From the NCBI GenBank assembly GCA_037389465.1, contig JAZARR010000021.1:62001-126000 (forward strand): a stretch of 64,000 bases of DNA. Direction: 5' to 3'. The stretch's first letter is position 1. The number at the start of each line of letters is the position of its first letter. This document shows positions 1-26,443 of this stretch, piece after piece. This stretch comes from Baylisascaris procyonis (lineage: Eukaryota; Nematoda; Chromadorea; Rhabditida; Ascarididae). A program made the position numbers and the translations under genes. A model generated the notes under the pieces. That model was not told where the DNA came from and searched no databases. It saw only the letters and a program-made list of their open reading frames with translations.

Positions 1-3000
1 ACATTTTCCATACTGAGCAGTTTAACGTACTCCCCCTACAAACCGGAAATACATCCAGTCCTGGACTATATCAACTGCTAATACATTTTCCATACTGAGC
101 AGTTTAACGTACTCCCCCTACAAACCGGAAATACATCCAGTCCTGGACTATATCAACTGCTAATACATTTTCCATACTGAGCAGTTTAACGTACTCCCCC
201 TACAAACCGGAAATACATCCAGTCCTGGACTATATCAACTGCTAATACATTTTCCATACTGAGCAGTTTAACGTACTCCCCCTACAAACCGGAAATACAT
301 CCAGTCCTGGACTATATCAACTGCTAATACATTTTCCATACTGAGCAGTTTAACGTACTCCCCCTACAAACCGGAAATACATCCAGTCCTGGACTATATC
401 AACTGCTAATACATTTTCCATACTGAGCAGTTTAACGTACTCCCCCTACAAACCGGAAATACATCCAGTCCTGGACTATATCAACTGCTAATACATTTTC
501 CATACTGAGCAGTTTAACGTACTCCCCCTACAAACCGGAAATACATCCAGTCCTGGACTATATCAACTGCTAATACATTTTCCATACTGAGCAGTTTAAC
601 GTACTCCCCCTACAAACCGGAAATACATCCAGTCCTGGACTATATCAACTGCTAATACATTTTCCATACTGAGCAGTTTAACGTACTCCCCCTACAAACC
701 GGAAATACATCCAGTCCTGGACTATATCAACTGCTAATACATTTTCCATACTGAGCAGTTTAACGTACTCCCCCTACAAACCGGAAATACATCCAGTCCT
801 GGACTATATCAACTGCTAATACATTTTCCATACTGAGCAGTTTAACGTACTCCCCCTACAAACCGGAAATACATCCAGTCCTGGACTATATCAACTGCTA
901 ATACATTTTCCATACTGAGCAGTTTAACGTACTCCCCCTACAAACCGGAAATACATCCAGTCCTGGACTATATCAACTGCTAATACATTTTCCATACTGA
1001 GCAGTTTAACGTACTCCCCCTACAAACCGGAAATACATCCAGTCCTGGACTATATCAACTGCTAATACATTTTCCATACTGAGCAGTTTAACGTACTCCC
1101 CCTACAAACCGGAAATACATCCAGTCCTGGACTATATCAACTGCTAATACATTTTCCATACTGAGCAGTTTAACGTACTCCCCCTACAAACCGGAAATAC
1201 ATCCAGTCCTGGACTATATCAACTGCTAATACATTTTCCATACTGAGCAGTTTAACGTACTCCCCCTACAAACCGGAAATACATCCAGTCCTGGACTATA
1301 TCAACTGCTAATACATTTTCCATACTGAGCAGTTTAACGTACTCCCCCTACAAACCGGAAATACATCCAGTCCTGGACTATATCAACTGCTAATACATTT
1401 TCCATACTGAGCAGTTTAACGTACTCCCCCTACAAACCGGAAATACATCCAGTCCTGGACTATATCAACTGCTAATACATTTTCCATACTGAGCAGTTTA
1501 ACGTACTCCCCCTACAAACCGGAAATACATCCAGTCCTGGACTATATCAACTGCTAATACATTTTCCATACTGAGCAGTTTAACGTACTCCCCCTACAAA
1601 CCGGAAATACATCCAGTCCTGGACTATATCAACTGCTAATACATTTTCCATACTGAGCAGTTTAACGTACTCCCCCTACAAACCGGAAATACATCCAGTC
1701 CTGGACTATATCAACTGCTAATACATTTTCCATACTGAGCAGTTTAACGTACTCCCCCTACAAACCGGAAATACATCCAGTCCTGGACTATATCAACTGC
1801 TAATACATTTTCCATACTGAGCAGTTTAACGTACTCCCCCTACAAACCGGAAATACATCCAGTCCTGGACTATATCAACTGCTAATACATTTTCCATACT
1901 GAGCAGTTTAACGTACTCCCCCTACAAACCGGAAATACATCCAGTCCTGGACTATATCAACTGCTAATACATTTTCCATACTGAGCAGTTTAACGTACTC
2001 CCCCTACAAACCGGAAATACATCCAGTCCTGGACTATATCAACTGCTAATACATTTTCCATACTGAGCAGTTTAACGTACTCCCCCTACAAACCGGAAAT
2101 ACATCCAGTCCTGGACTATATCAACTGCTAATACATTTTCCATACTGAGCAGTTTAACGTACTCCCCCTACAAACCGGAAATACATCCAGTCCTGGACTA
2201 TATCAACTGCTAATACATTTTCCATACTGAGCAGTTTAACGTACTCCCCCTACAAACCGGAAATACATCCAGTCCTGGACTATATCAACTGCTAATACAT
2301 TTTCCATACTGAGCAGTTTAACGTACTCCCCCTACAAACCGGAAATACATCCAGTCCTGGACTATATCAACTGCTAATACATTTTCCATACTGAGCAGTT
2401 TAACGTACTCCCCCTACAAACCGGAAATACATCCAGTCCTGGACTATATCAACTGCTAATACATTTTCCATACTGAGCAGTTTAACGTACTCCCCCTACA
2501 AACCGGAAATACATCCAGTCCTGGACTATATCAACTGCTAATACATTTTCCATACTGAGCAGTTTAACGTACTCCCCCTACAAACCGGAAATACATCCAG
2601 TCCTGGACTATATCAACTGCTAATACATTTTCCATACTGAGCAGTTTAACGTACTCCCCCTACAAACCGGAAATACATCCAGTCCTGGACTATATCAACT
2701 GCTAATACATTTTCCATACTGAGCAGTTTAACGTACTCCCCCTACAAACCGGAAATACATCCAGTCCTGGACTATATCAACTGCTAATACATTTTCCATA
2801 CTGAGCAGTTTAACGTACTCCCCCTACAAACCGGAAATACATCCAGTCCTGGACTATATCAACTGCTAATACATTTTCCATACTGAGCAGTTTAACGTAC
2901 TCCCCCTACAAACCGGAAATACATCCAGTCCTGGACTATATCAACTGCTAATACATTTTCCATACTGAGCAGTTTAACGTACTCCCCCTACAAACCGGAA

Positions 3001-6000
3001 ATACATCCAGTCCTGGACTATATCAACTGCTAATACATTTTCCATACTGAGCAGTTTAACGTACTCCCCCTACAAACCGGAAATACATCCAGTCCTGGAC
3101 TATATCAACTGCTAATACATTTTCCATACTGAGCAGTTTAACGTACTCCCCCTACAAACCGGAAATACATCCAGTCCTGGACTATATCAACTGCTAATAC
3201 ATTTTCCATACTGAGCAGTTTAACGTACTCCCCCTACAAACCGGAAATACATCCAGTCCTGGACTATATCAACTGCTAATACATTTTCCATACTGAGCAG
3301 TTTAACGTACTCCCCCTATAAACCGGAAATACATCCAGTCCTGGACTATATCAACTGCTAATACATTTTCCATACTGAGCAGTTTAACGTACTCCCCCTA
3401 CAAACCGGAAATACATCCAGTCCTGGACTATATCAACTGCTAATACATTTTCCATACTGAGCAGTTTAACGTACTCCCCCTACAAACCGGAAATACATCC
3501 AGTCCTGGACTATATCAACTGCTAATACATTTTCCATACTGAGCAGTTTAACGTACTCCCCCTACAAACCGGAAATACATCCAGTCCTGGACTATATCAA
3601 CTGCTAATACATTTTCCATACTGAGCAGTTTAACGTACTCCCCCTACAAACCGGAAATACATCCAGTCCTGGACTATATCAACTGCTAATACATTTTCCA
3701 TACTGAGCAGTTTAACGTACTCCCCCTACAAACCGGAAATACATCCAGTCCTGGACTATATCAACTGCTAATACATTTTCCATACTGAGCAGTTTAACGT
3801 ACTCCCCCTACAAACCGGAAATACATCCAGTCCTGGACTATATCAACTGCTAATACATTTTCCATACTGAGCAGTTTAACGTACTCCCCCTACAAACCGG
3901 AAATACATCCAGTCCTGGACTATATCAACTGCTAATACATTTTCCATACTGAGCAGTTTAACGTACTCCCCCTACAAACCGGAAATACATCCAGTCCTGG
4001 ACTATATCAACTGCTAATACATTTTCCATACTGAGCAGTTTAACGTACTCCCCCTACAAACCGGAAATACATCCAGTCCTGGACTATATCAACTGCTAAT
4101 ACATTTTCCATACTGAGCAGTTTAACGTACTCCCCCTACAAACCGGAAATACATCCAGTCCTGGACTATATCAACTGCTAATACATTTTCCATACTGAGC
4201 AGTTTAACGTACTCCCCCTACAAACCGGAAATACATCCAGTCCTGGACTATATCAACTGCTAATACATTTTCCATACTGAGCAGTTTAACGTACTCCCCC
4301 TACAAACCGGAAATACATCCAGTCCTGGACTATATCAACTGCTAATACATTTTCCATACTGAGCAGTTTAACGTACTCCCCCTACAAACCGGAAATACAT
4401 CCAGTCCTGGACTATATCAACTGCTAATACATTTTCCATACTGAGCAGTTTAACGTACTCCCCCTACAAACCGGAAATACATCCAGTCCTGGACTATATC
4501 AACTGCTAATACATTTTCCATACTGAGCAGTTTAACGTACTCCCCCTACAAACCGGAAATACATCCAGTCCTGGACTATATCAACTGCTAATACATTTTC
4601 CATACTGAGCAGTTTAACGTACTCCCCCTACAAACCGGAAATACATCCAGTCCTGGACTATATCAACTGCTAATACATTTTCCATACTGAGCAGTTTAAC
4701 GTACTCCCCCTACAAACCGGAAATACATCCAGTCCTGGACTATATCAACTGCTAATACATTTTCCATACTGAGCAGTTTAACGTACTCCCCCTACAAACC
4801 GGAAATACATCCAGTCCTGGACTATATCAACTGCTAATACATTTTCCATACTGAGCAGTTTAACGTACTCCCCCTACAAACCGGAAATACATCCAGTCCT
4901 GGACTATATCAACTGCTAATACATTTTCCATACTGAGCAGTTTAACGTACTCCCCCTACAAACCGGAAATACATCCAGTCCTGGACTATATCAACTGCTA
5001 ATACATTTTCCATACTGAGCAGTTTAACGTACTCCCCCTACAAACCGGAAATACATCCAGTCCTGGACTATATCAACTGCTAATACATTTTCCATACTGA
5101 GCAGTTTAACGTACTCCCCCTACAAACCGGAAATACATCCAGTCCTGGACTATATCAACTGCTAATACATTTTCCATACTGAGCAGTTTAACGTACTCCC
5201 CCTACAAACCGGAAATACATCCAGTCCTGGACTATATCAACTGCTAATACATTTTCCATACTGAGCAGTTTAACGTACTCCCCCTACAAACCGGAAATAC
5301 ATCCAGTCCTGGACTATATCAACTGCTAATACATTTTCCATACTGAGCAGTTTAACGTACTCCCCCTACAAACCGGAAATACATCCAGTCCTGGACTATA
5401 TCAACTGCTAATACATTTTCCATACTGAGCAGTTTAACGTACTCCCCCTACAAACCGGAAATACATCCAGTCCTGGACTATATCAACTGCTAATACATTT
5501 TCCATACTGAGCAGTTTAACGTACTCCCCCTACAAACCGGAAATACATCCAGTCCTGGACTATATCAACTGCTAATACATTTTCCATACTGAGCAGTTTA
5601 ACGTACTCCCCCTACAAACCGGAAATACATCCAGTCCTGGACTATATCAACTGCTAATACATTTTCCATACTGAGCAGTTTAACGTACTCCCCCTACAAA
5701 CCGGAAATACATCCAGTCCTGGACTATATCAACTGCTAATACATTTTCCATACTGAGCAGTTTAACGTACTCCCCCTACAAACCGGAAATACATCCAGTC
5801 CTGGACTATATCAACTGCTAATACATTTTCCATACTGAGCAGTTTAACGTACTCCCCCTACAAACCGGAAATACATCCAGTCCTGGACTATATCAACTGC
5901 TAATACATTTTCCATACTGAGCAGTTTAACGTACTCCCCCTACAAACCGGAAATACATCCAGTCCTGGACTATATCAACTGCTAATACATTTTCCATACT

Positions 6001-9000
6001 GAGCAGTTTAACGTACTCCCCCTACAAACCGGAAATACATCCAGTCCTGGACTATATCAACTGCTAATACATTTTCCATACTGAGCAGTTTAACGTACTC
6101 CCCCTACAAACCGGAAATACATCCAGTCCTGGACTATATCAACTGCTAATACATTTTCCATACTGAGCAGTTTAACGTACTCCCCCTACAAACCGGAAAT
6201 ACATCCAGTCCTGGACTATATCAACTGCTAATACATTTTCCATACTGAGCAGTTTAACGTACTCCCCCTACAAACCGGAAATACATCCAGTCCTGGACTA
6301 TATCAACTGCTAATACATTTTCCATACTGAGCAGTTTAACGTACTCCCCCTACAAACCGGAAATACATCCAGTCCTGGACTATATCAACTGCTAATACAT
6401 TTTCCATACTGAGCAGTTTAACGTACTCCCCCTACAAACCGGAAATACATCCAGTCCTGGACTATATCAACTGCTAATACATTTTCCATACTGAGCAGTT
6501 TAACGTACTCCCCCTACAAACCGGAAATACATCCAGTCCTGGACTATATCAACTGCTAATACATTTTCCATACTGAGCAGTTTAACGTACTCCCCCTACA
6601 AACCGGAAATACATCCAGTCCTGGACTATATCAACTGCTAATACATTTTCCATACTGAGCAGTTTAACGTACTCCCCCTACAAACCGGAAATACATCCAG
6701 TCCTGGACTATATCAACTGCTAATACATTTTCCATACTGAGCAGTTTAACGTACTCCCCCTACAAACCGGAAATACATCCAGTCCTGGACTATATCAACT
6801 GCTAATACATTTTCCATACTGAGCAGTTTAACGTACTCCCCCTACAAACCGGAAATACATCCAGTCCTGGACTATATCAACTGCTAATACATTTTCCATA
6901 CTGAGCAGTTTAACGTACTCCCCCTACAAACCGGAAATACATCCAGTCCTGGACTATATCAACTGCTAATACATTTTCCATACTGAGCAGTTTAACGTAC
7001 TCCCCCTACAAACCGGAAATACATCCAGTCCTGGACTATATCAACTGCTAATACATTTTCCATACTGAGCAGTTTAACGTACTCCCCCTACAAACCGGAA
7101 ATACATCCAGTCCTGGACTATATCAACTGCTAATACATTTTCCATACTGAGCAGTTTAACGTACTCCCCCTACAAACCGGAAATACATCCAGTCCTGGAC
7201 TATATCAACTGCTAATACATTTTCCATACTGAGCAGTTTAACGTACTCCCCCTACAAACCGGAAATACATCCAGTCCTGGACTATATCAACTGCTAATAC
7301 ATTTTCCATACTGAGCAGTTTAACGTACTCCCCCTACAAACCGGAAATACATCCAGTCCTGGACTATATCAACTGCTAATACATTTTCCATACTGAGCAG
7401 TTTAACGTACTCCCCCTACAAACCGGAAATACATCCAGTCCTGGACTATATCAACTGCTAATACATTTTCCATACTGAGCAGTTTAACGTACTCCCCCTA
7501 CAAACCGGAAATACATCCAGTCCTGGACTATATCAACTGCTAATACATTTTCCATACTGAGCAGTTTAACGTACTCCCCCTACAAACCGGAAATACATCC
7601 AGTCCTGGACTATATCAACTGCTAATACATTTTCCATACTGAGCAGTTTAACGTACTCCCCCTACAAACCGGAAATACATCCAGTCCTGGACTATATCAA
7701 CTGCTAATACATTTTCCATACTGAGCAGTTTAACGTACTCCCCCTACAAACCGGAAATACATCCAGTCCTGGACTATATCAACTGCTAATACATTTTCCA
7801 TACTGAGCAGTTTAACGTACTCCCCCTACAAACCGGAAATACATCCAGTCCTGGACTATATCAACTGCTAATACATTTTCCATACTGAGCAGTTTAACGT
7901 ACTCCCCTACAAACCGGAAATACATCCAGTCCTGGACTATATCAACTGCTAATACATTTTCCATACTGAGCAGTTTAACGTACTCCCCCTACAAACCGGA
8001 AATACATCCAGTCCTGGACTATATCAACTGCTAATACATTTTCCATACTGAGCAGTTTAACGTACTCCCCCTACAAACCGGAAATACATCCAGTCCTGGA
8101 CTATATCAACTGCTAATACATTTTCCATACTGAGCAGTTTAACGTACTCCCCCTACAAACCGGAAATACATCCAGTCCTGGACTATATCAACTGCTAATA
8201 CATTTTCCATACTGAGCAGTTTAACGTACTCCCCCTACAAACCGGAAATACATCCAGTCCTGGACTATATCAACTGCTAATACATTTTCCATACTGAGCA
8301 GTTTAACGTACTCCCCCTACAAACCGGAAATACATCCAGTCCTGGACTATATCAACTGCTAATACATTTTCCATACTGAGCAGTTTAACGTACTCCCCCT
8401 ACAAACCGGAAATACATCCAGTCCTGGACTATATCAACTGCTAATACATTTTCCATACTGAGCAGTTTAACGTACTCCCCCTACAAACCGGAAATACATC
8501 CAGTCCTGGACTATATCAACTGCTAATACATTTTCCATACTGAGCAGTTTAACGTACTCCCCCTACAAACCGGAAATACATCCAGTCCTGGACTATATCA
8601 ACTGCTAATACATTTTCCATACTGAGCAGTTTAACGTACTCCCCCTACAAACCGGAAATACATCCAGTCCTGGACTATATCAACTGCTAATACATTTTCC
8701 ATACTGAGCAGTTTAACGTACTCCCCCTACAAACCGGAAATACATCCAGTCCTGGACTATATCAACTGCTAATACATTTTCCATACTGAGCAGTTTAACG
8801 TACTCCCCCTACAAACCGGAAATACATCCAGTCCTGGACTATATCAACTGCTAATACATTTTCCATACTGAGCAGTTTAACGTACTCCCCCTACAAACCG
8901 GAAATACATCCAGTCCTGGACTATATCAACTGCTAATACATTTTCCATACTGAGCAGTTTAACGTACTCCCCCTACAAACCGGAAATACATCCAGTCCTG

Positions 9001-12000
9001 GACTATATCAACTGCTAATACATTTTCCATACTGAGCAGTTTAACGTACTCCCCCTACAAACCGGAAATACATCCAGTCCTGGACTATATCAACTGCTAA
9101 TACATTTTCCATACTGAGCAGTTTAACGTACTCCCCCTACAAACCGGAAATACATCCAGTCCTGGACTATATCAACTGCTAATACATTTTCCATACTGAG
9201 CAGTTTAACGTACTCCCCCTACAAACCGGAAATACATCCAGTCCTGGACTATATCAACTGCTAATACATTTTCCATACTGAGCAGTTTAACGTACTCCCC
9301 CTACAAACCGGAAATACATCCAGTCCTGGACTATATCAACTGCTAATACATTTTCCATACTGAGCAGTTTAACGTACTCCCCCTACAAACCGGAAATACA
9401 TCCAGTCCTGGACTATATCAACTGCTAATACATTTTCCATACTGAGCAGTTTAACGTACTCCCCCTACAAACCGGAAATACATCCAGTCCTGGACTATAT
9501 CAACTGCTAATACATTTTCCATACTGAGCAGTTTAACGTACTCCCCCTACAAACCGGAAATACATCCAGTCCTGGACTATATCAACTGCTAATACATTTT
9601 CCATACTGAGCAGTTTAACGTACTCCCCCTACAAACCGGAAATACATCCAGTCCTGGACTATATCAACTGCTAATACATTTTCCATACTGAGCAGTTTAA
9701 CGTACTCCCCCTACAAACCGGAAATACATCCAGTCCTGGACTATATCAACTGCTAATACATTTTCCATACTGAGCAGTTTAACGTACTCCCCCTACAAAC
9801 CGGAAATACATCCAGTCCTGGACTATATCAACTGCTAATACATTTTCCATACTGAGCAGTTTAACGTACTCCCCCTACAAACCGGAAATACATCCAGTCC
9901 TGGACTATATCAACTGCTAATACATTTTCCATACTGAGCAGTTTAACGTACTCCCCCTACAAACCGGAAATACATCCAGTCCTGGACTATATCAACTGCT
10001 AATACATTTTCCATACTGAGCAGTTTAACGTACTCCCCCTACAAACCGGAAATACATCCAGTCCTGGACTATATCAACTGCTAATACATTTTCCATACTG
10101 AGCAGTTTAACGTACTCCCCCTACAAACCGGAAATACATCCAGTCCTGGACTATATCAACTGCTAATACATTTTCCATACTGAGCAGTTTAACGTACTCC
10201 CCCTACAAACCGGAAATACATCCAGTCCTGGACTATATCAACTGCTAATACATTTTCCATACTGAGCAGTTTAACGTACTCCCCCTACAAACCGGAAATA
10301 CATCCAGTCCTGGACTATATCAACTGCTAATACATTTTCCATACTGAGCAGTTTAACGTACTCCCCCTACAAACCGGAAATACATCCAGTCCTGGACTAT
10401 ATCAACTGCTAATACATTTTCCATACTGAGCAGTTTAACGTACTCCCCCTACAAACCGGAAATACATCCAGTCCTGGACTATATCAACTGCTAATACATT
10501 TTCCATACTGAGCAGTTTAACGTACTCCCCCTACAAACCGGAAATACATCCAGTCCTGGACTATATCAACTGCTAATACATTTTCCATACTGAGCAGTTT
10601 AACGTACTCCCCCTACAAACCGGAAATACATCCAGTCCTGGACTATATCAACTGCTAATACATTTTCCATACTGAGCAGTTTAACGTACTCCCCCTACAA
10701 ACCGGAAATACATCCAGTCCTGGACTATATCAACTGCTAATACATTTTCCATACTGAGCAGTTTAACGTACTCCCCCTACAAACCGGAAATACATCCAGT
10801 CCTGGACTATATCAACTGCTAATACATTTTCCATACTGAGCAGTTTAACGTACTCCCCCTACAAACCGGAAATACATCCAGTCCTGGACTATATCAACTG
10901 CTAATACATTTTCCATACTGAGCAGTTTAACGTACTCCCCCTACAAACCGGAAATACATCCAGTCCTGGACTATATCAACTGCTAATACATTTTCCATAC
11001 TGAGCAGTTTAACGTACTCCCCCTATAAACCGGAAATACATCCAGTCCTGGACTATATCAACTGCTAATACATTTTCCATACTGAGCAGTTTAACGTACT
11101 CCCCCTACAAACCGGAAATACATCCAGTCCTGGACTATATCAACTGCTAATACATTTTCCATACTGAGCAGTTTAACGTACTCCCCCTACAAACCGGAAA
11201 TACATCCAGTCCTGGACTATATCAACTGCTAATACATTTTCCATACTGAGCAGTTTAACGTACTCCCCCTACAAACCGGAAATACATCCAGTCCTGGACT
11301 ATATCAACTGCTAATACATTTTCCATACTGAGCAGTTTAACGTACTCCCCCTACAAACCGGAAATACATCCAGTCCTGGACTATATCAACTGCTAATACA
11401 TTTTCCATACTGAGCAGTTTAACGTACTCCCCCTACAAACCGGAAATACATCCAGTCCTGGACTATATCAACTGCTAATACATTTTCCATACTGAGCAGT
11501 TTAACGTACTCCCCCTACAAACCGGAAATACATCCAGTCCTGGACTATATCAACTGCTAATACATTTTCCATACTGAGCAGTTTAACGTACTCCCCCTAC
11601 AAACCGGAAATACATCCAGTCCTGGACTATATCAACTGCTAATACATTTTCCATACTGAGCAGTTTAACGTACTCCCCCTACAAACCGGAAATACATCCA
11701 GTCCTGGACTATATCAACTGCTAATACATTTTCCATACTGAGCAGTTTAACGTACTCCCCCTACAAACCGGAAATACATCCAGTCCTGGACTATATCAAC
11801 TGCTAATACATTTTCCATACTGAGCAGTTTAACGTACTCCCCCTACAAACCGGAAATACATCCAGTCCTGGACTATATCAACTGCTAATACATTTTCCAT
11901 ACTGAGCAGTTTAACGTACTCCCCCTACAAACCGGAAATACATCCAGTCCTGGACTATATCAACTGCTAATACATTTTCCATACTGAGCAGTTTAACGTA

Positions 12001-15000
12001 CTCCCCCTACAAACCGGAAATACATCCAGTCCTGGACTATATCAACTGCTAATACATTTTCCATACTGAGCAGTTTAACGTACTCCCCCTACAAACCGGA
12101 AATACATCCAGTCCTGGACTATATCAACTGCTAATACATTTTCCATACTGAGCAGTTTAACGTACTCCCCCTACAAACCGGAAATACATCCAGTCCTGGA
12201 CTATATCAACTGCTAATACATTTTCCATACTGAGCAGTTTAACGTACTCCCCCTACAAACCGGAAATACATCCAGTCCTGGACTATATCAACTGCTAATA
12301 CATTTTCCATACTGAGCAGTTTAACGTACTCCCCCTACAAACCGGAAATACATCCAGTCCTGGACTATATCAACTGCTAATACATTTTCCATACTGAGCA
12401 GTTTAACGTACTCCCCCTACAAACCGGAAATACATCCAGTCCTGGACTATATCAACTGCTAATACATTTTCCATACTGAGCAGTTTAACGTACTCCCCCT
12501 ACAAACCGGAAATACATCCAGTCCTGGACTATATCAACTGCTAATACATTTTCCATACTGAGCAGTTTAACGTACTCCCCCTACAAACCGGAAATACATC
12601 CAGTCCTGGACTATATCAACTGCTAATACATTTTCCATACTGAGCAGTTTAACGTACTCCCCCTACAAACCGGAAATACATCCAGTCCTGGACTATATCA
12701 ACTGCTAATACATTTTCCATACTGAGCAGTTTAACGTACTCCCCCTACAAACCGGAAATACATCCAGTCCTGGACTATATCAACTGCTAATACATTTTCC
12801 ATACTGAGCAGTTTAACGTACTCCCCCTACAAACCGGAAATACATCCAGTCCTGGACTATATCAACTGCTAATACATTTTCCATACTGAGCAGTTTAACG
12901 TACTCCCCCTACAAACCGGAAATACATCCAGTCCTGGACTATATCAACTGCTAATACATTTTCCATACTGAGCAGTTTAACGTACTCCCCCTACAAACCG
13001 GAAATACATCCAGTCCTGGACTATATCAACTGCTAATACATTTTCCATACTGAGCAGTTTAACGTACTCCCCCTACAAACCGGAAATACATCCAGTCCTG
13101 GACTATATCAACTGCTAATACATTTTCCATACTGAGCAGTTTAACGTACTCCCCCTACAAACCGGAAATACATCCAGTCCTGGACTATATCAACTGCTAA
13201 TACATTTTCCATACTGAGCAGTTTAACGTACTCCCCCTACAAACCGGAAATACATCCAGTCCTGGACTATATCAACTGCTAATACATTTTCCATACTGAG
13301 CAGTTTAACGTACTCCCCCTACAAACCGGAAATACATCCAGTCCTGGACTATATCAACTGCTAATACATTTTCCATACTGAGCAGTTTAACGTACTCCCC
13401 CTACAAACCGGAAATACATCCAGTCCTGGACTATATCAACTGCTAATACATTTTCCATACTGAGCAGTTTAACGTACTCCCCCTACAAACCGGAAATACA
13501 TCCAGTCCTGGACTATATCAACTGCTAATACATTTTCCATACTGAGCAGTTTAACGTACTCCCCCTACAAACCGGAAATACATCCAGTCCTGGACTATAT
13601 CAACTGCTAATACATTTTCCATACTGAGCAGTTTAACGTACTCCCCCTATAAACCGGAAATACATCCAGTCCTGGACTATATCAACTGCTAATACATTTT
13701 CCATACTGAGCAGTTTAACGTACTCCCCCTACAAACCGGAAATACATCCAGTCCTGGACTATATCAACTGCTAATACATTTTCCATACTGAGCAGTTTAA
13801 CGTACTCCCCCTACAAACCGGAAATACATCCAGTCCTGGACTATATCAACTGCTAATACATTTTCCATACTGAGCAGTTTAACGTACTCCCCCTACAAAC
13901 CGGAAATACATCCAGTCCTGGACTATATCAACTGCTAATACATTTTCCATACTGAGCAGTTTAACGTACTCCCCCTACAAACCGGAAATACATCCAGTCC
14001 TGGACTATATCAACTGCTAATACATTTTCCATACTGAGCAGTTTAACGTACTCCCCCTACAAACCGGAAATACATCCAGTCCTGGACTATATCAACTGCT
14101 AATACATTTTCCATACTGAGCAGTTTAACGTACTCCCCCTACAAACCGGAAATACATCCAGTCCTGGACTATATCAACTGCTAATACATTTTCCATACTG
14201 AGCAGTTTAACGTACTCCCCCTACAAACCGGAAATACATCCAGTCCTGGACTATATCAACTGCTAATACATTTTCCATACTGAGCAGTTTAACGTACTCC
14301 CCCTACAAACCGGAAATACATCCAGTCCTGGACTATATCAACTGCTAATACATTTTCCATACTGAGCAGTTTAACGTACTCCCCCTACAAACCGGAAATA
14401 CATCCAGTCCTGGACTATATCAACTGCTAATACATTTTCCATACTGAGCAGTTTAACGTACTCCCCCTACAAACCGGAAATACATCCAGTCCTGGACTAT
14501 ATCAACTGCTAATACATTTTCCATACTGAGCAGTTTAACGTACTCCCCCTACAAACCGGAAATACATCCAGTCCTGGACTATATCAACTGCTAATACATT
14601 TTCCATACTGAGCAGTTTAACGTACTCCCCCTACAAACCGGAAATACATCCAGTCCTGGACTATATCAACTGCTAATACATTTTCCATACTGAGCAGTTT
14701 AACGTACTCCCCCTACAAACCGGAAATACATCCAGTCCTGGACTATATCAACTGCTAATACATTTTCCATACTGAGCAGTTTAACGTACTCCCCCTACAA
14801 ACCGGAAATACATCCAGTCCTGGACTATATCAACTGCTAATACATTTTCCATACTGAGCAGTTTAACGTACTCCCCCTACAAACCGGAAATACATCCAGT
14901 CCTGGACTATATCAACTGCTAATACATTTTCCATACTGAGCAGTTTAACGTACTCCCCCTACAAACCGGAAATACATCCAGTCCTGGACTATATCAACTG

Positions 15001-18000
15001 CTAATACATTTTCCATACTGAGCAGTTTAACGTACTCCCCCTACAAACCGGAAATACATCCAGTCCTGGACTATATCAACTGCTAATACATTTTCCATAC
15101 TGAGCAGTTTAACGTACTCCCCCTACAAACCGGAAATACATCCAGTCCTGGACTATATCAACTGCTAATACATTTTCCATACTGAGCAGTTTAACGTACT
15201 CCCCCTACAAACCGGAAATACATCCAGTCCTGGACTATATCAACTGCTAATACATTTTCCATACTGAGCAGTTTAACGTACTCCCCCTACAAACCGGAAA
15301 TACATCCAGTCCTGGACTATATCAACTGCTAATACATTTTCCATACTGAGCAGTTTAACGTACTCCCCCTACAAACCGGAAATACATCCAGTCCTGGACT
15401 ATATCAACTGCTAATACATTTTCCATACTGAGCAGTTTAACGTACTCCCCCTACAAACCGGAAATACATCCAGTCCTGGACTATATCAACTGCTAATACA
15501 TTTTCCATACTGAGCAGTTTAACGTACTCCCCCTACAAACCGGAAATACATCCAGTCCTGGACTATATCAACTGCTAATACATTTTCCATACTGAGCAGT
15601 TTAACGTACTCCCCCTACAAACCGGAAATACATCCAGTCCTGGACTATATCAACTGCTAATACATTTTCCATACTGAGCAGTTTAACGTACTCCCCCTAC
15701 AAACCGGAAATACATCCAGTCCTGGACTATATCAACTGCTAATACATTTTCCATACTGAGCAGTTTAACGTACTCCCCCTATAAACCGGAAATACATCCA
15801 GTCCTGGACTATATCAACTGCTAATACATTTTCCATACTGAGCAGTTTAACGTACTCCCCCTACAAACCGGAAATACATCCAGTCCTGGACTATATCAAC
15901 TGCTAATACATTTTCCATACTGAGCAGTTTAACGTACTCCCCTACAAACCGGAAATACATCCAGTCCTGGACTATATCAACTGCTAATACATTTTCCATA
16001 CTGAGCAGTTTAACGTACTCCCCCTACAAACCGGAAATACATCCAGTCCTGGACTATATCAACTGCTAATACATTTTCCATACTGAGCAGTTTAACGTAC
16101 TCCCCCTATAAACCGGAAATACATCCAGTCCTGGACTATATCAACTGCTAATACATTTTCCATACTGAGCAGTTTAACGTACTCCCCTACAAACCGGAAA
16201 TACATCCAGTCCTGGACTATATCAACTGCTAATACATTTTCCATACTGAGCAGTTTAACGTACTCCCCCTACAAACCGGAAATACATCCAGTCCTGGACT
16301 ATATCAACTGCTAATACATTTTCCATACTGAGCAGTTTAACGTACTCCCCCTACAAACCGGAAATACATCCAGTCCTGGACTATATCAACTGCTAATACA
16401 TTTTCCATACTGAGCAGTTTAACGTACTCCCCCTACAAACCGGAAATACATCCAGTCCTGGACTATATCAACTGCTAATACATTTTCCATACTGAGCAGT
16501 TTAACGTACTCCCCCTACAAACCGGAAATACATCCAGTCCTGGACTATATCAACTGCTAATACATTTTCCATACTGAGCAGTTTAACGTACTCCCCCTAC
16601 AAACCGGAAATACATCCAGTCCTGGACTATATCAACTGCTAATACATTTTCCATACTGAGCAGTTTAACGTACTCCCCCTACAAACCGGAAATACATCCA
16701 GTCCTGGACTATATCAACTGCTAATACATTTTCCATACTGAGCAGTTTAACGTACTCCCCCTACAAACCGGAAATACATCCAGTCCTGGACTATATCAAC
16801 TGCTAATACATTTTCCATACTGAGCAGTTTAACGTACTCCCCCTACAAACCGGAAATACATCCAGTCCTGGACTATATCAACTGCTAATACATTTTCCAT
16901 ACTGAGCAGTTTAACGTACTCCCCCTACAAACCGGAAATACATCCAGTCCTGGACTATATCAACTGCTAATACATTTTCCATACTGAGCAGTTTAACGTA
17001 CTCCCCCTACAAACCGGAAATACATCCAGTCCTGGACTATATCAACTGCTAATACATTTTCCATACTGAGCAGTTTAACGTACTCCCCCTACAAACCGGA
17101 AATACATCCAGTCCTGGACTATATCAACTGCTAATACATTTTCCATACTGAGCAGTTTAACGTACTCCCCCTATAAACCGGAAATACATCCAGTCCTGGA
17201 CTATATCAACTGCTAATACATTTTCCATACTGAGCAGTTTAACGTACTCCCCCTACAAACCGGAAATACATCCAGTCCTGGACTATATCAACTGCTAATA
17301 CATTTTCCATACTGAGCAGTTTAACGTACTCCCCCTATAAACCGGAAATACATCCAGTCCTGGACTATATCAACTGCTAATACATTTTCCATACTGAGCA
17401 GTTTAACGTACTCCCCCTACAAACCGGAAATACATCCAGTCCTGGACTATATCAACTGCTAATACATTTTCCATACTGAGCAGTTTAACGTACTCCCCCT
17501 ACAAACCGGAAATACATCCAGTCCTGGACTATATCAACTGCTAATACATTTTCCATACTGAGCAGTTTAACGTACTCCCCCTACAAACCGGAAATACATC
17601 CAGTCCTGGACTATATCAACTGCTAATACATTTTCCATACTGAGCAGTTTAACGTACTCCCCCTACAAACCGGAAATACATCCAGTCCTGGACTATATCA
17701 ACTGCTAATACATTTTCCATACTGAGCAGTTTAACGTACTCCCCCTACAAACCGGAAATACATCCAGTCCTGGACTATATCAACTGCTAATACATTTTCC
17801 ATACTGAGCAGTTTAACGTACTCCCCCTACAAACCGGAAATACATCCAGTCCTGGACTATATCAACTGCTAATACATTTTCCATACTGAGCAGTTTAACG
17901 TACTCCCCCTACAAACCGGAAATACATCCAGTCCTGGACTATATCAACTGCTAATACATTTTCCATACTGAGCAGTTTAACGTACTCCCCCTACAAACCG

Positions 18001-19689
18001 GAAATACATCCAGTCCTGGACTATATCAACTGCTAATACATTTTCCATACTGAGCAGTTTAACGTACTCCCCCTACAAACCGGAAATACATCCAGTCCTG
18101 GACTATATCAACTGCTAATACATTTTCCATACTGAGCAGTTTAACGTACTCCCCCTACAAACCGGAAATACATCCAGTCCTGGACTATATCAACTGCTAA
18201 TACATTTTCCATACTGAGCAGTTTAACGTACTCCCCCTACAAACCGGAAATACATCCAGTCCTGGACTATATCAACTGCTAATACATTTTCCATACTGAG
18301 CAGTTTAACGTACTCCCCCTACAAACCGGAAATACATCCAGTCCTGGACTATATCAACTGCTAATACATTTTCCATACTGAGCAGTTTAACGTACTCCCC
18401 CTACAAACCGGAAATACATCCAGTCCTGGACTATATCAACTGCTAATACATTTTCCATACTGAGCAGTTTAACGTACTCCCCCTACAAACCGGAAATACA
18501 TCCAGTCCTGGACTATATCAACTGCTAATACATTTTCCATACTGAGCAGTTTAACGTACTCCCCCTACAAACCGGAAATACATCCAGTCCTGGACTATAT
18601 CAACTGCTAATACATTTTCCATACTGAGCAGTTTAACGTACTCCCCCTACAAACCGGAAATACATCCAGTCCTGGACTATATCAACTGCTAATACATTTT
18701 CCATACTGAGCAGTTTAACGTACTCCCCCTACAAACCGGAAATACATCCAGTCCTGGACTATATCAACTGCTAATACATTTTCCATACTGAGCAGTTTAA
18801 CGTACTCCCCCTACAAACCGGAAATACATCCAGTCCTGGACTATATCAACTGCTAATACATTTTCCATACTGAGCAGTTTAACGTACTCCCCCTACAAAC
18901 CGGAAATACATCCAGTCCTGGACTATATCAACTGCTAATACATTTTCCATACTGAGCAGTTTAACGTACTCCCCCTACAAACCGGAAATACATCCAGTCC
19001 TGGACTATATCAACTGCTAATACATTTTCCATACTGAGCAGTTTAACGTACTCCCCCTACAAACCGGAAATACATCCAGTCCTGGACTATATCAACTGCT
19101 AATACATTTTCCATACTGAGCAGTTTAACGTACTCCCCCTACAAACCGGAAATACATCCAGTCCTGGACTATATCAACTGCTAATACATTTTCCATACTG
19201 AGCAGTTTAACGTACTCCCCCTACAAACCGGAAATACATCCAGTCCTGGACTATATCAACTGCTAATACATTTTCCATACTGAGCAGTTTAACGTACTCC
19301 CCCTACAAACCGGAAATACATCCAGTCCTGGACTATATCAACTGCTAATACATTTTCCATACTGAGCAGTTTAACGTACTCCCCCTACAAACCGGAAATA
19401 CATCCAGTCCTGGACTATATCAACTGCTAATACATTTTCCATACTGAGCAGTTTAACGTACTCCCCCTACAAACCGGAAATACATCCAGTCCTGGACTAT
19501 ATCAACTGCTAATACATTTTCCATACTGAGCAGTTTAACGTACTCCCCCTATAAACCGGAAATACATCCAGTCCTGGACTATATCAACTGCTAATACATT
19601 TTCCATACTGAGCAGTTTAACGTACTCCCCCTACAAACCGGAAATACATTCAGTCCTGGACTATGTCAACTGCTAATACATTTTCCATA
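1..19689. repeat. 82-bp satellite array, 240 copies plus 12-bp stub
   Basis: The unit begins ACATTTTCCATACTGAGCAG and repeats head to tail with a period of 82 bp and about 41% GC. The length is exactly accounted for: 240 x 82 = 19680, minus three single-base deletions, puts the end of the last full unit at 19677; 12 bases of unit 241 follow. Variants seen by eye: C39 to T at 3319, 11026, 13650, 15782, 16109, 17174, 17338 and 19552, and a five-C run shortened to four near 7904, 15939 and 16184. The last copy has two further changes (19650, 19665). All frames are closed, so it encodes no protein. Base 1 is in phase with the unit, so the array runs off the left edge. The unit has no unique spacers, so it is satellite DNA and not CRISPR. 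Its family is not recognised. Confidence 0.99.
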
Positions 19690-19766
19690 GTCGTAGCATA
19701 ATCGACCGCTCATCCCTTAGGTTAGCGATACAAGAAACTACGATAGCACAAGAATTTAGATTGAAT

Positions 19767-19819
19767 TTTATTCATTTTTTTTCCTGAAATAAAAATTCAT
19801 CGAAAACATAAAAACGAAC
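19767..19819 (-). promoter_or_regulatory. Alternative 3' end of torsin: 36-nt intron, stop and AATAAA
   Basis: After the exon 6 donor (19819) a consensus acceptor TTTTTATTTCAG ends at 19784. Splicing there gives a 16-nt terminal exon (19783-19768) adding RKKNE and a stop at 19770-19768. An AATAAA polyadenylation signal (19772-19767) overlaps the stop. Without splicing, the frame reaches the same stop after 17 more residues. Either way the product ends just after Walker B. Whether this end is used is unknown. Confidence 0.45.
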
Positions 19820-22800
19820 CTCAAAAAAATAAAGATACTCTTTCGATAGTCTATTCCTTCGAGATTATCATAGTGATCGATGAACGGCTTTATTGCATCC
19901 ATTACTTTTGGAGGCATTTTATCCACCTCGTCGAATATAAATAAACTCCTCTCGCATAAAGATACATTCCCGTGAATCCATTCACGTAAATTCTGCTGCA
20001 AAAATATAGCCCCCATTACCGTACATCCTTGAATAAAAGACCATCAGGTACCGTACATTCTTAAATAGAAGACCACTCTCCAATAGAACATCTCCTTGAA
20101 TGGAAAGTGATTTCTTCAAAAGCAGAAAAAGTAAGAGACCCCGTCGACCAAAGAATGCAGCTTTCCCTGCTCAAAACTATGCCAAATAGATATTCAAAGT
20201 TTTTTACTCGATTCAAATCGAACATTTATCTTAAATAGCCAGTGTTAAACATTACGATCTACACTGAAATTTACCCTTAAAAGGATATCAAAAAATTTGC
20301 ATCCATACAAAGGCTTCTTCTAGCTCGAACTTCTTTCTATACACCAAGATAGACAAATCACAGTACAACAAAAAGTGGGCGAATATCTTTCTACGGATGA
20401 ATTCGACCTCCCCTCCCTCCCTCCCTTGTTCCACCTCCCCTTCCCTTCCCTTCCCCCTTGTATAAGCTCAAAGAAAACTTTTTAAACTCGATTTTCGCTC
20501 AATAAGATATCATTGCCTACAAAAATGGTGTATAAATTGGGTAAGTGCCTCCCCCCTCCCTTTGCATTCCCTCAACGAATTATACCCGTTTAAAATAAGC
20601 GCAACCTGTAGAACATAAATTTCGACCAAATATGCAAACAACAAACTTGATATGTGGAAATTTCGTTTGGATTGGCAAAATGCAACGTTGATATAAATAA
20701 ATGCACATATTCACTTTTCATACCTTTCCTGCAAATATTCTGGATTTATAATAAGAAGCAATTCTCATCAATCTCTTTTTTCGGCTTAACAACTCCATCA
20801 GTTTATACTGTTTCCCTCTTTCTATTAAAGCTGGAATCTGTTGAATGCCCTCTATAATGAGATTCCTTTCCCTTAATTTTCGTTGAAGTGACATCTTTCA
20901 ATATGCTCAGAAAAGGCGACAACTTGCCAACGAAAATACATTCAATTAATTGACTTAAAAAACTACTATTACTTCATCATCAATTCAGATAATTCTTTTG
21001 TTGTTGCTTCAATTTAAACCCGCCTCAATTAATTTTTGACTTTCAGCTACCTAATGCTTATGTGATGGGTATATCCGCCTATGTCCCCAAAATCAAGGAG
21101 ATAAGGATTAAAAATTGGGATCTAGTGGGAATAGTTTATTCTCGTATACTCCCTCTTAAGAACTTGACTACTCAATGGAACAATTGTTTCATCTTCTACA
21201 TATTCGATTCCTCAGTTTTGCCTTCATAATGCTTAAGCAAGTTCCTTTCCAATTTTCTGCAACGACAAATGATGACAGAAGAAGAGAGGGTAGAGGAGGC
21301 GGAGAGGATGGCAAGAGGGAGATGACTAAAAGGCTCTAAAAATCAGGATCTCATCAATCCAAAAAGACTACTATTACCATTTATCACATCTTTCATCAAT
21401 TAAATATAAACCAATCATGTAATGTCCTCCTCTTCCGTCCAACTATTAATAAAACACTTACCTACAAACTCGAATATGTGCTTTTATTCAATGTGAGCGC
21501 GTAATGTTATCTAATATGAAAAAAAGAGCTGCAAACTTACTTGAACATATTTTCAGCAATCATCGAAGTGAGATAGTTCTTACCACATCCTGTCCATCCA
21601 TGAAACGATATTACCAACGCTTTCTTTGGATTCCTCAAATATTATGCGTATCGATTAAACAAAACAATCCATTTCCGGGTTAACTAATTATCACTAGTAA
21701 AACCACTGTATTAAAATAACTCTTCAATTAAAAAATAATTTGAAGTGGCATCATGAAAGTGCAAAATCTATAGCACTGATATAGGAACAAATACAGAGCC
21801 TAAGCAACAAATAAATGGTGATGGTGGCGCTTCCGGTAGCTCAGTGGTGAAACGATCGCCCTAATACGCAAAAGATCGCCAGTTCGCTCTTCTAGCAACA
21901 ATTTTTGTCAAGGTCATCGAACAATGGTTGATAAAATCAATGATAATATTTATGGTAAAGAAAAATTTATGATAAAAATTTATTCAATTTTCTAAAATAT
22001 CTTAAAGATAAGCGATCAGCTTTTTTCTCTGTCCTATATTCCACGGTGACGTACACACAAATTTCCGGAAGACTGTGAAGTTTTCCTCTCGTCGGCCCTA
22101 AACAAAAATCAACTTGTGCACCGCATCACATTGCGGAAAATTGAGATCACTTCGAAAAAAATTTTTTTCTGATTGCTGCAAAAAATCATTTTTTAATTTT
22201 TCTTCTAAATTTTTCCAGGAATTTCATAAATATTTCCACTATGAGAAGGCATTAAAAAAAGTGCTTACTCATTATTAAAATGTGATTCAATTGCTGGAAC
22301 GACTGTTTCTTGGGCAAGATGTTGTCCATATAACCTCTGCCGCATCGTTTTGCGCAATCCTGTAAATGAAAGTTTCATAGTTTTTAGTGAAAGTGATAGT
22401 TATTCACATGTTTTCTCTTCAAACAGCTAAAGGTGCTGATGACGGGCAAAAGGAAAAACCTTCCAAAAGAGATTTGTTTGCAGCACAAATTAGATTATAA
22501 ACTCCCTTCAAGATCGCAATATTATTCAATGTTTGAACGTTTCAATTTTGATTTGGCGCACCAACTTTTCCAATTTTTCATTTACTTTTGCCTTTCAATT
22601 TTTTTAAAATCACCAAAAATTTTCGTTTCTTTTTCATTTGATTTGCAAAGAATTATGGCCATATCGGTACATTACGGATTATTATTTGAAGTGCAAAGTA
22701 ATTACTCTATAAGCCGAACTTTCAATTATGAGAGTATTACTTCATTACGGTTACGAATTAATACAAATTTCAGTTATGAAATATAACAAAACAGTGGGAT

Positions 22801-24555
22801 GAGAGATCAGCTCGGGAATCCTGAAAACATAATCCCCTCCCCTACACTAACATCAACTGCCCGTTTCACCTTATTAATGCGATTATCAAATATGCCTATA
22901 AAACATCTCTATAATAAAACTGGACCAACTCATTGATCAACTTTTGAAAAGCTTGAAAGTAATTTGGTTTATAAGATTCGAATCATGATTGTGTAAAATG
23001 GGTCATTCTTGGAAGAACGGAAAATAAACATACAATATTTTTTAGTAGTGAAACATTACTGAAAATTTGAGAGTAGTTTGCAATTTCCCAAGCACAGAGA
23101 TCTCAAAATCGAATATTCTTTGATTGAAGGCGATCCCTAAAGATTCAATGTTGCATTATGGTGATATTTTGCTAGTGCATGAATAATTTCTTTTAAATAA
23201 TCGGCATTTACGAATAGTTGATATACTTACCATTGGCATGCATATACACCCAATTGTTTATACAACATTCGAAAAATTTACATCTTGTATATTGATAAGT
23301 ACCATAAAAAAGTGATAACGCTGCCACAGCACCTCCACCCACAATTAAACTCACTGGCTCTGCATTTACCTGCAATTGCATTAAATGCTTATATCTATCT
23401 CATTGGCTAATAATTCGAGATGGTCATAAACCATATTCGCATCGAGTGACCATTCACACAGAGTGACCTTCCCCTCACCGACGAAATCTCTTCCCTATTT
23501 TAATTCAAGAAATTAGAAACTCTTCAATATAGCTTAAAAAATGTGTTACAGCAAAACATACATTTAATAACTTTTAACTTTTAAACTTAATTTTAAAATT
23601 CAGCGTTATTTAAAAAACATTCAATTTTTTTTTATTTTTAAACATATTTAAACATTTAAAAATTAAAATTTTAAAATTTAAAAGCAAAACATAATAACTT
23701 AATTAGAAACTTTTAAAACATTCAGCGTTATTCACCGTTCACCATCGTGGTTTATGCAAGAATGTATTATGGGCTTCGTTATCGTCGCCAGTTGACGGTT
23801 TGGCGTGCTACATTCAAACGACTCAACGATGCAACAGAAAAAGTTCTGATTGTAATTCAGCGTTGCATAAAGACATGCCAAACGGCGCTTTTGTCCTCAA
23901 CAAAGACCGTAACACATCCCATCATGAATCCAACTACTTCCACGATTATTCACTCCCTAAGTGGTATGAGGCGCAAGTTACATAATCATTCATTATCACA
24001 TATTTGTTTCCGAATAAATATTTAAAACACACAGCCCCGTCCTTAAGGTCGTAAAGCTCACATCACGATTTCATTAATACACCGAAGCAACATTCCAAAA
24101 TCGAAATTATGCAATTTGTGATAGAAGAACTTCATATTCCTCAAAAAATTACTAAAGGAATAATATCCCAAAAATTATTCCCCTCCTTCATACAAAAAAT
24201 AAGAGCATTCTCTCTAATCGTTTTGAATATTATATGTGGTTTACTCTCCTTTCATTACGGATAATTCAACATTTAAGCTTACAGCGTATAAAATCCTACC
24301 TGTCAATGCTTCAATACAAGACGCCCCTCTCCAATTTGCTTCCCATCCTCCGACTGAGCTTACTTTTAACTACCAAAAATTACGCCTTCTTTCTACGCTC
24401 CCCATTTCTTATCGAGCTCACTCTCAAAAACTACTTTCATGAATCGAGCATCGGTTTGTTTTGAGCGTTACAATTAATAAAAAAAGAAAAAAAAAAAACA
24501 AAGTAAACTCACCGATAATGACCACCAATATAACGATAATAAGAATGCAATGCAT
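19768..24555 (-). CDS. Torsin-family ER-lumenal AAA+ ATPase, 3' part missing
   Basis: Exons (minus): 24555-24513, 23359-23231, 22359-22269, 21633-21541, 20728-20647, 19995-19820; all five joins keep phase. The first ATG follows an in-frame TAG and encodes a hydrophobic signal segment. Next come a hydrophobic stretch and CKFFECC, the N-terminal cysteine cluster of torsins. GQHLA is in exon 3. Exon 4 has a torsin-type Walker A, GWTGCGKN, with Asn in place of Thr/Ser. Exon 5 has YVHLF...STLHF. Exon 6 has the sequon NVS and Walker B SLFIFDEVDKM, ending at KSIFIFL. About 204 residues are present against roughly 330 for the family; sensor 1, sensor 2 and the C-terminal GCK region are absent. The exon 6 donor (GTTCGT, phase 2) predicts Ser next, as in other torsins, but the satellite starts 130 bp on. 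The listed left end is the read-through stop at 19768. Torsins work in the ER and nuclear-envelope lumen with LAP1/LULL1-type activators. Confidence 0.88.
20017..20110. repeat. Imperfect 32-bp direct repeat in torsin intron 5
   Basis: Two copies starting TACCGTACAT (20017-20043 and 20049-20075) match at about 23 of 27 positions. A weaker third copy follows near 20086. The repeat lies on the 5' side of torsin exon 6 and is unrelated to the 82-bp satellite. Confidence 0.6.
21831..21905 (+). repeat. tRNA-like segment (degenerate, possibly a SINE head)
   Basis: An A-box-like TAGCTCAGTGGT is followed about 40 nt later by a B-box-like AGTTCGCTC. The acceptor, anticodon and T stems do not pair properly, so this is not a working tRNA gene. 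It lies in torsin intron 3 on the opposite strand. A tRNA pseudogene or the RNA polymerase III head of a SINE are both possible. Confidence 0.35.
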
Positions 24556-26443
24556 CTAAATCTTTGTAATGGAGTGGCAAATATCAACATATCTAAAATT
24601 TATCCACTATTACATCAGCATTGATATAAAAAAAAGTGAATTAAACATATGCAAATCGCTATTTTATAGTACGATGGTATTTATATGGAAACGAATGCAC
24701 TCAACATGAATTATATTATGGAGGAACGAACACGCTGGATGCGAGAAGAACAATCTGAAGCATTAGCGATGTGGGAAAGAAAATTACAACTGAAACTCCA
24801 GTTTTTTTTTTTTTTTCATTTATTGCAAATAATTTTTGAAATTCCAACTCGGATAGAAGAAATGAAGGATACAGGAAGGTATGAAAGGAAGGGAGGTGCC
24901 GCATGGATATGGGGATTTCCCTCCCTGACGAGTTATGTGACGCTGCTGCGTGGTGGTACGCATGAAGTGAGCTTAATAATGAAATTTGCATATATCCTGA
25001 ACCCTTTTTGCGTTGATTTATTTTTGTTTATAAATTTTTGTTTTGAATATTGGAAGACCTCCAAATTATCTAATATTCAATAGCAGAAAAGCAACGGGGA
25101 TTGCCGATTTATGCAAAAACCTCGGATGAGGCGTGAAAATTCTAGATCAAAAACACTCAAAACTATTTTAGTTTTAAACAAGCGAAATTATCTTCCTCAC
25201 CTCCTTTCCTAGAAATTTTTATGTATTTCCACACCATCACCATCGTATATGGATGACTCTCAAATTCAAAAATATCTATACAGATTTAAATTATTGATTG
25301 ATTTTCGATGAGAAAACATTATTTCAAAGCAATTATTGAATATAAGCGATAGTGCATTGAGAAATAACAAGTGCAAGCAACACTAACTGTTAGATGAGTT
25401 CATGTTTATTCACATAATAAAATACTCAAAAACCACGAAGAAACAAATATATACATATGCGCACAAAGCCATCATTTAATCATTAAAACAAGGAACCTTG
25501 CAGATTCATGAGCACCATCACTTCTCACTTTACCCAAGAAATATATCCCCTTCCTACATTATCTTTATTAAGGTTGGAGTCATTGTCATGTAAGAATTAC
25601 AACCTTAGATGAACCGTGAATGAAAGACATCCAGTTTCGCGTTGAAAATTGTTTGCAGCCCAAACAATTGAGCCACTGGGTCATTATTCATGACTATACG
25701 TTAAATTGCTTTCTTTGAAAGCGTTTTGCATTTTTTATACACTCAAATATTTCATATTCGAAATATAAATGAAAATAAAATAAGACGAAAACCATGAAAA
25801 TATATATTTATAAAGAAAATATGCAGAAATACGGCAAAATTTGAAATTAAAAAAAGAGATTATAGTTATGCAAATAATATCAACCAAATAATATATACGA
25901 AAAAAGATGAAAAAGACGAAATGATTGCTGCAAAGATTGAGATTTATCAGCAGATATGAACATAGCTCTAGATAAAAATATCTGACTATCGCATTTCTCG
26001 AACTAGCAAGCGGTAAAAATCTGTTCAACGCTTCTACCTACTAAGCCAATAAACGACGCTCCATCTGCTTTGTTTTCATATAGGAAAAATCGAAATTAAT
26101 GTAAACAGATTATGCATCAAAAAATGGCTATCACATCTCTCTATGTTACTTAGTTCTTTACCTTCACTTCTGCGTTTTAAAGAAAATAGCAACACTTTGT
26201 ACGTCTAATAATGGAAAACTGTTTCAGTTCCATAAATCTCTTTCTACTGTGACCTATAAGAGTGTATTTTTTGAAATCACACAACATAACTTATAGGCAT
26301 TAATAAACTTAAATATTTAAACAAAATATATTGCCAACTCCATCAGCTAGAGACCATAAACTTAGAAGTAAAGTTAACGCCAATCGGCTGACGCTTACTA
26401 GACGCCGTAACTCACCACCACAAGAACAGCAAGCAACGAATAG
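24556..26443. other. Intergenic, RNASEH2C 3' end to torsin 5' end
   Basis: About 1.9 kb separate the RNASEH2C stop from the torsin start, and this should hold the torsin promoter. A plus-strand ORF (24685-25083, 132 codons) runs through a 17-base T run and has no recognisable domain, so it is not called. Poly-A/T runs and AT-rich single-copy DNA fill the rest. No further gene is seen. Confidence 0.6.

Follow-up and report, generated by a model that had tools for sequence, protein, structure and literature searches.

Does a large satellite array cut a torsin gene short, or does the array lie within one of its introns? This question is raised by a 64,000-nucleotide stretch of a Baylisascaris procyonis contig (C21:62001-126000, hereafter the window), part of a 272.8-Mb assembly of this ascarid nematode in 293 contigs. 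Torsin is an AAA+ ATPase of the endoplasmic reticulum lumen that is activated by a cofactor. On the minus strand of the window, six torsin exons are followed in the direction of transcription by 82-bp tandem repeats that run through the left end of the stretch. The initial annotation left two readings of this arrangement, namely a gene that spans a satellite-filled intron and a gene that has lost its C-terminal third. We found that the torsin gene is complete in the assembly, with nine exons, and is not truncated. Very probably, its intron 6 is a local, single-locus 82-bp satellite that would be transcribed with the gene and spliced out.

The six exons in the window form one open frame of 219 amino acids plus two leftover bases, with GT after all six exons and AG before exons 2-6 (Table 1). 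This part alone matched the Pfam Torsin family (E 1.4e-49) and Torsin-1A structures (E 1.5e-51), and the HGWTGCGKN of exon 4 and the FIFDEVDK of exon 6 fit the patterns GWTGxGKN and FIFDE, which we take to be the Walker A and Walker B motifs. Among the matches listed (the best 120 of 157 proteins at E 0.001), the closest named relatives were from Toxocara canis (87% over 89%) and Ascaris suum (95% over 69%), and further relatives came from other parasitic nematodes. Exon 6 ends at AG/GTTCGT, and the residues after this join are S-N-S-G-G in A. suum and S-N-A in the solved Torsin-1A structure. The initial annotation had thus read the phase-2 donor at 19820 and the Ser-Asn continuation correctly. 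It had also stated that the next exon is not in the 130 bp left between donor and array, and tblastn searches with three torsins indeed found no C-terminal torsin exon in the window.

The initial annotation had proposed to look to the left of the window, on the same strand, for sensor-1 and GCK-type exons, and C-terminal torsin exons were found beyond the array. Torsin exons 1-6 are present on three contigs, C21 (128 kb), C198 (5.64 Mb, near the right end) and C199 (2.22 Mb, near the left end). Searched for the torsin C-terminus, the whole assembly yielded 4 scored candidates, of which 3 matched at E 0.001; these 3 lie on C198. Exons 7-9 on this contig have good acceptors and donors and lie beyond the array from exon 6 on the same strand. 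Exon 7 opens with T AAC TCA GGT GGA; joined to the donor, AG/T makes Ser and the sequence reads Ser-Asn-Ser-Gly-Gly, as in A. suum, to which exons 7, 8 and 9 are 93%, 90% and 98% identical, respectively. The nine joined exons encode 364 amino acids with no internal stop. The joined protein matches PF06309 (Torsin; E 4.1e-49, residues 56-182) and, through exons 7-9 of C198, PF21376 (TOR1A_C; 5.2e-12, residues 284-338), and its residues 72-338 align to Torsin-1A (6oif) through the GCK motif, which is presumably sensor 2. Of the two readings, the satellite-filled intron is therefore the one supported, and loss of the C-terminal third is rejected, exons 7-9 being present on C198. Intron 6 measures ~32.8 kb on this contig (32,775 bp by the exon limits applied here; exon 6 of C198 is disturbed by a few bases at its end); the other torsin introns measure 276 to 1,213 bp.

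In the window, Tandem Repeats Finder (TRF) reported a period of 82 with 240.1 copies and 99% matches, consistent with the ~19.7 kb of satellite described earlier. The accompanying figure of 240 or more repeats proved to be an underestimate. The array on C21 covers C21:1-81689, that is at least 81.7 kb and 996 unit intervals, and continues for 62 kb to the left of the window up to the contig end. On C199, it extends over at least 25 kb (305 intervals) and likewise reaches the contig end. On C198, 390 unit intervals occupy 32.1 kb (~5585.66-5617.75 kb) between exon 7 and exon 6, so that the array there lies within one intron; this placement rests on that contig together with the lack of a third location in the assembly. 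An exact 47-base probe gave 1,319 matches in the assembly, all forward and none reverse, and every one of them falls in the torsin copies of C21, C198 and C199 (811 + 326 + 182). With a 30-base probe and up to 3 mismatches, all 1,485 matches were again confined to the same three copies (875 + 387 + 223), with none on the opposite strand. The 82-bp family thus appears to be private to torsin intron 6 in this assembly at the probes used, both of which come from the same part of the unit, so that diverged relatives elsewhere or unassembled arrays could escape them. The satellite had no matches in viral and prokaryote collections, as expected, in searches that may omit records close to the genome of the window, and a short-word blastn search of a doubled unit against both flanks, aimed at the origin of the unit, gave no match at E 1.

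Several observations weigh against a satellite-filled intron, and some of them favour an assembly error in which the two sides, that of exon 6 and that of exon 7, are wrongly connected on C198, the array in truth standing beside only one of them. The array is crossed by a single contig, C198, which is damaged on its exon 6 side. At 5618165-5618480, two patches made up of four satellite runs (46-78 bp) stand in place of intron 5 sequence. Exon 2 holds a further 14 bases of satellite (5621336-5621349), exon 6 contains indels, and the altered junction with the array lacks ~30 bases that are present in C21 and C199. These patches lower the trust that can be placed in the crossing. The array lengths are also discordant between contigs (32 kb versus at least 82 kb), and C198 may therefore be collapsed or represent a shorter allele. 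C21 and C199 are not independent alleles, since their 5,010 bp across torsin align with 0 mismatches and only 2 gap columns, and all 659 coding bases of exons 1-6 are shared. Finally, a DNA search of the assembly with the whole 82-mer returned no match, a result that is uninformative because very common words are skipped, and pattern counts replaced it for locating the array.

However, the damage in C198 looks like the product of error correction. A scan for satellite runs of 11 bases found none in 46,413 bp of C21, 45,015 bp of C199 and 25,654 bp on the exon 7 side of C198 itself (three random sequences modelled on the C21 flank held 3, 1 and 0 satellite 11-mers). C21 and C199 are free of such patches. 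We infer that satellite letters were written into C198 during correction and that the patches are not biology. Moreover, C21 and C199 likewise pass from exon 6 into the array, with an identical 100-base junction, and the only other junction between array and unique DNA in the assembly lies beside exon 7 on C198. Provided that the family occurs nowhere else, these two kinds of junction are the ends of one array, an argument that is independent of the C198 crossing. Neither probe matched at a third place, and the phase and order of the exons across the array fit the torsin family. A false join is thus highly improbable, and the misassembly that the initial annotation had named as its possible undoing is mostly answered. 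As a separate observation, a gene caller would take the torsin of C198 to be broken, given its patches and exon 6 indels. A purifying-selection test between C21 and C199 was uninformative, as exons and introns alike showed 0 mismatches over the 5-kb torsin region.

The near-identity of the units in the window (228 of 240 are identical 82-mers, 8 carry C39T, 3 have lost one base in a C run and the last has two changes) is not typical of the whole array, few parts of which vary as little as the window. C39T was found in 64 of 423 units (15.1%) in C21:1-35000, in 50 of 294 (17.0%) on C199 and in 60 of 390 (15.4%) on C198, compared with 12 of 569 (2.1%) in C21:35001-81689 and 8 of 240 (3.3%) in the window. 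Units with a shortened C run were frequent in C21:1-35000 (26.7%) and C199 (24.5%), whereas the window, the right part of C21 and C198 each had ~1%. The uniformity of the window may partly come from polishing in C21, whose noisier part also shows more variation. However, C198 argues against polishing as the whole explanation: it is clean in its C runs and yet has C39T in 15.4% of its units, and most of these units lie towards exon 7 (the first 10 kb has 46 among 121 units and the remainder 14 among 269). It is equally possible that the variation follows a real gradient, as expected from local exchange.

If the gene is expressed across this intron, RNA polymerase II would copy the whole array, and the spliceosome would join 19820 to the acceptor of exon 7, so that the array would leave as part of one long intron. 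Most likely, the array would be transcribed passively and removed with intron 6, with no need for it to have a function. The polymerase moves at 1-4 kb per minute, and transcription of intron 6 would take ~8-80 minutes, depending on its true length. On the sense strand, the unit contains no GTRAG, AGGT, TTTCAG or AATAAA, which is unremarkable in 82 bp; repetition therefore does not multiply those splice and poly(A) signals. All three sense frames of the unit contain stops. When folded as sense-strand RNA, one unit gave a z of -1.88 and a dimer -5.41, values to which we attach no meaning, because shuffling destroys the repeat and covariation would require related sequences.

The 130 bp of unique intron 6 next to the donor bear on another explanation, in which the array splits the gene functionally and most transcripts end before or inside it, giving a torsin of ~236 amino acids without the sensor motifs. 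An AATAAA (19772-19767, minus strand) starts 48 bases past the exon 6 donor, and read-through of this donor would add 17 residues before a stop. We also noted that TTTCAG closes a stretch of 36 bases that starts at the donor; as a tiny intron, this stretch would likewise lead to an early stop in our reading. In addition, the polymerase of Drosophila reportedly has difficulty with the repeats of gigantic introns (PMC11207136). However, the AATAAA may be there by chance, as ~0.1 would be expected in 130 bp of such composition (an estimate from base counts), and exons 7-9 have open frames and, taken singly, share 90-98% identity with A. suum, indicating that they have been kept. It is therefore very unlikely that the gene is split in this way, and a complete torsin gene from whose transcript the array would be spliced out remains the preferred reading.

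When might the array have arisen? The T. canis protein that spans the exon 6/7 join is encoded on a 15,943-bp contig, and an Anisakis protein that covers the end of exon 6 and exons 7-9 is encoded on a 3,653-bp contig; unless these contigs have gaps, intron 6 would be shorter in both species. On this basis, it is simplest to suppose that the large array postdates the splits from Toxocara and Anisakis. It would then have grown in place after these splits, by unequal exchange or replication slippage, rather than having spread from elsewhere. Upstream of torsin lies an RNASEH2C-like gene whose product matches an RNase_H2_suC-domain protein of Ascaris lumbricoides (88% over 65%; one of two matches), one piece of its open reading frame (ORF) alone reaching 14.4 bits against the RNase_H2_suC Pfam family, below the cut-off of 20.8. 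Two strongylid predictions, from Dictyocaulus and Cylicocyclus, carry RNase_H2_suC and torsin domains in one protein. This suggests that the adjacency of RNASEH2C and torsin is old, and the two may possibly form an operon. With RNASEH2C next door and the strongylid fusions, the torsin described here looks like the ancestral locus and not a stray partial copy.

Satellite-filled introns are already known. The Drosophila Y genes kl-3 and kl-5 have gigantic introns that contain satellites and, like torsin, they are protein-coding genes with a satellite intron and exons on both sides (PMC6508621). They are Y-linked, their introns are of megabase size and made of simple repeats, and their transcription in spermatocytes is established by experiment (PMC6508621). 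The torsin intron is in the range of tens of kilobases (~32.8 kb as assembled on C198 and at least 82 kb on C21), is built from an 82-bp unit of a single locus, lies in an ordinary AAA+ gene and is known from genome sequence alone. Large tandem arrays wholly inside introns are also on record in human (PMC2588610); these share the position of the array with torsin but differ in lineage and units and come from a group not known for satellite elimination. Judged by titles and the start of abstracts, literature on torsin with satellite and intron, or on torsin with Ascaris, contained none on a satellite in a torsin intron.

What is special here is the setting in a worm group that eliminates satellites. 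The germline satellites of ascarids, a 121-bp unit in Ascaris, 5- and 10-bp units in Parascaris and a 49-bp unit in Toxocara, are bulk repeats that make up 9-89% of the genomes and are removed from the soma (PMC9894435, PMC9071541). The 82-bp family resembles them in being a tandem satellite of an ascarid genome. In contrast, it is not an abundant bulk repeat in the assembly, where it occupies one locus, inside a gene. In the studied relatives, more than 99% of satellite DNA is eliminated in the soma (PMC9894435). This raises the idea that body cells lose the array through programmed DNA elimination, leaving torsin whole in the germline only and broken in the soma. However, the elimination figure concerns other satellites in those species, and no TTAGGC was seen, on one strand or the other, in the 2,000 bases with which C21 and C199 begin, at the contig ends that the array reaches. 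We thus consider somatic loss of torsin the least probable of the explanations weighed here. A broader conditional statement, itself doubtful, is that, if the species eliminates satellites, either the array is spared, in which case satellite nature would not be the mark for elimination, or it is removed and full-length torsin would be germline-only.

On the preferred reading, torsin is a conserved gene outside the Drosophila Y that would be transcribed through hundreds to a thousand 82-bp copies. Since studied relatives lose more than 99% of satellite DNA in the soma (PMC9894435), the locus is also a clean case in which to ask whether satellite sequence or chromosome position directs elimination. 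Genome projects can take a warning from it as well: contigs break off in such an array, two further contigs are left with incomplete gene copies, and satellite letters can apparently enter neighbouring exons during correction.

Table 1 Features of the torsin locus. Positions refer to the window unless C198 is named.
Feature	Position	Strand	Basis or remark
82-bp tandem array, right-hand end, 240 units in window	1-19689		TRF; unit tally
Unique part of intron 6, donor to array, 130 bp	19690-19819	-	Sequence; no torsin exon by tblastn
Torsin exon 6 (Walker B), phase-2 donor	19820-19995	-	tblastn, 98.3% to A. suum over 59 aa
Torsin exon 5	20647-20728	-	Frame, splice sites, tblastn
Torsin exon 4 (Walker A)	21541-21633	-	tblastn, 31/31 aa identical to A. 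suum
Torsin exon 3	22269-22359	-	Frame, splice sites, tblastn
Torsin exon 2 (hydrophobic N-terminal region)	23231-23369	-	Frame, splice sites, tblastn
Torsin exon 1 (proposed start and signal sequence)	24513-24590	-	Reading frame and donor only; no tblastn support
RNASEH2C-like upstream neighbour	26447-27857	-	Hand-modelled; exon limits approximate
Torsin exon 7	C198:5584942-5585066	Torsin strand	Acceptor TTTTTTTCAG, phase 2
Torsin exon 8	C198:5583562-5583728	Torsin strand	Acceptor AAACTTTCAG
Torsin exon 9	C198:5583142-5583285	Torsin strand	Acceptor TTCTTTTCAG

Further features were noted around the gene. Upstream of torsin, C21 and C199 are ~99.1% identical. A 2.5-kb stretch at 26.7-29.2 kb of the window (C21 ~88.7-91.2 kb) falls to 95.4% identity when C21 is compared with either C198 or C199, neighbouring stretches being at 98.2 to 99.7%. 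Rfam (at the gathering threshold) and ARAGORN reported nothing in the window. By eye, torsin intron 3 holds a tRNA-like stretch at 21830-21905 (GGTAGCTCAGTGG...), perhaps from a tRNA-derived short interspersed nuclear element. Two other minus-strand ORFs in the window matched known families, one at 35633-35896 the insert domain of RNA 3'-terminal phosphate cyclase (1.6e-9) and one at 51573-51899 a sugar transporter family (1.6e-12).

Elsewhere in the assembly, an 8-fold probe of the pentamer TTGCA gave 72 matches in short arrays on C89, C169, C177, C186 and C228; we take this pentamer to be the Parascaris satellite, although as a pointer to the species it is not decisive. The last 200 bases at the right end of C199 are mostly (TTAGGC)n, placing torsin ~2.2 Mb from a telomere-like end, and a 30-base telomere probe gave 282,047 overlapping matches in the assembly.

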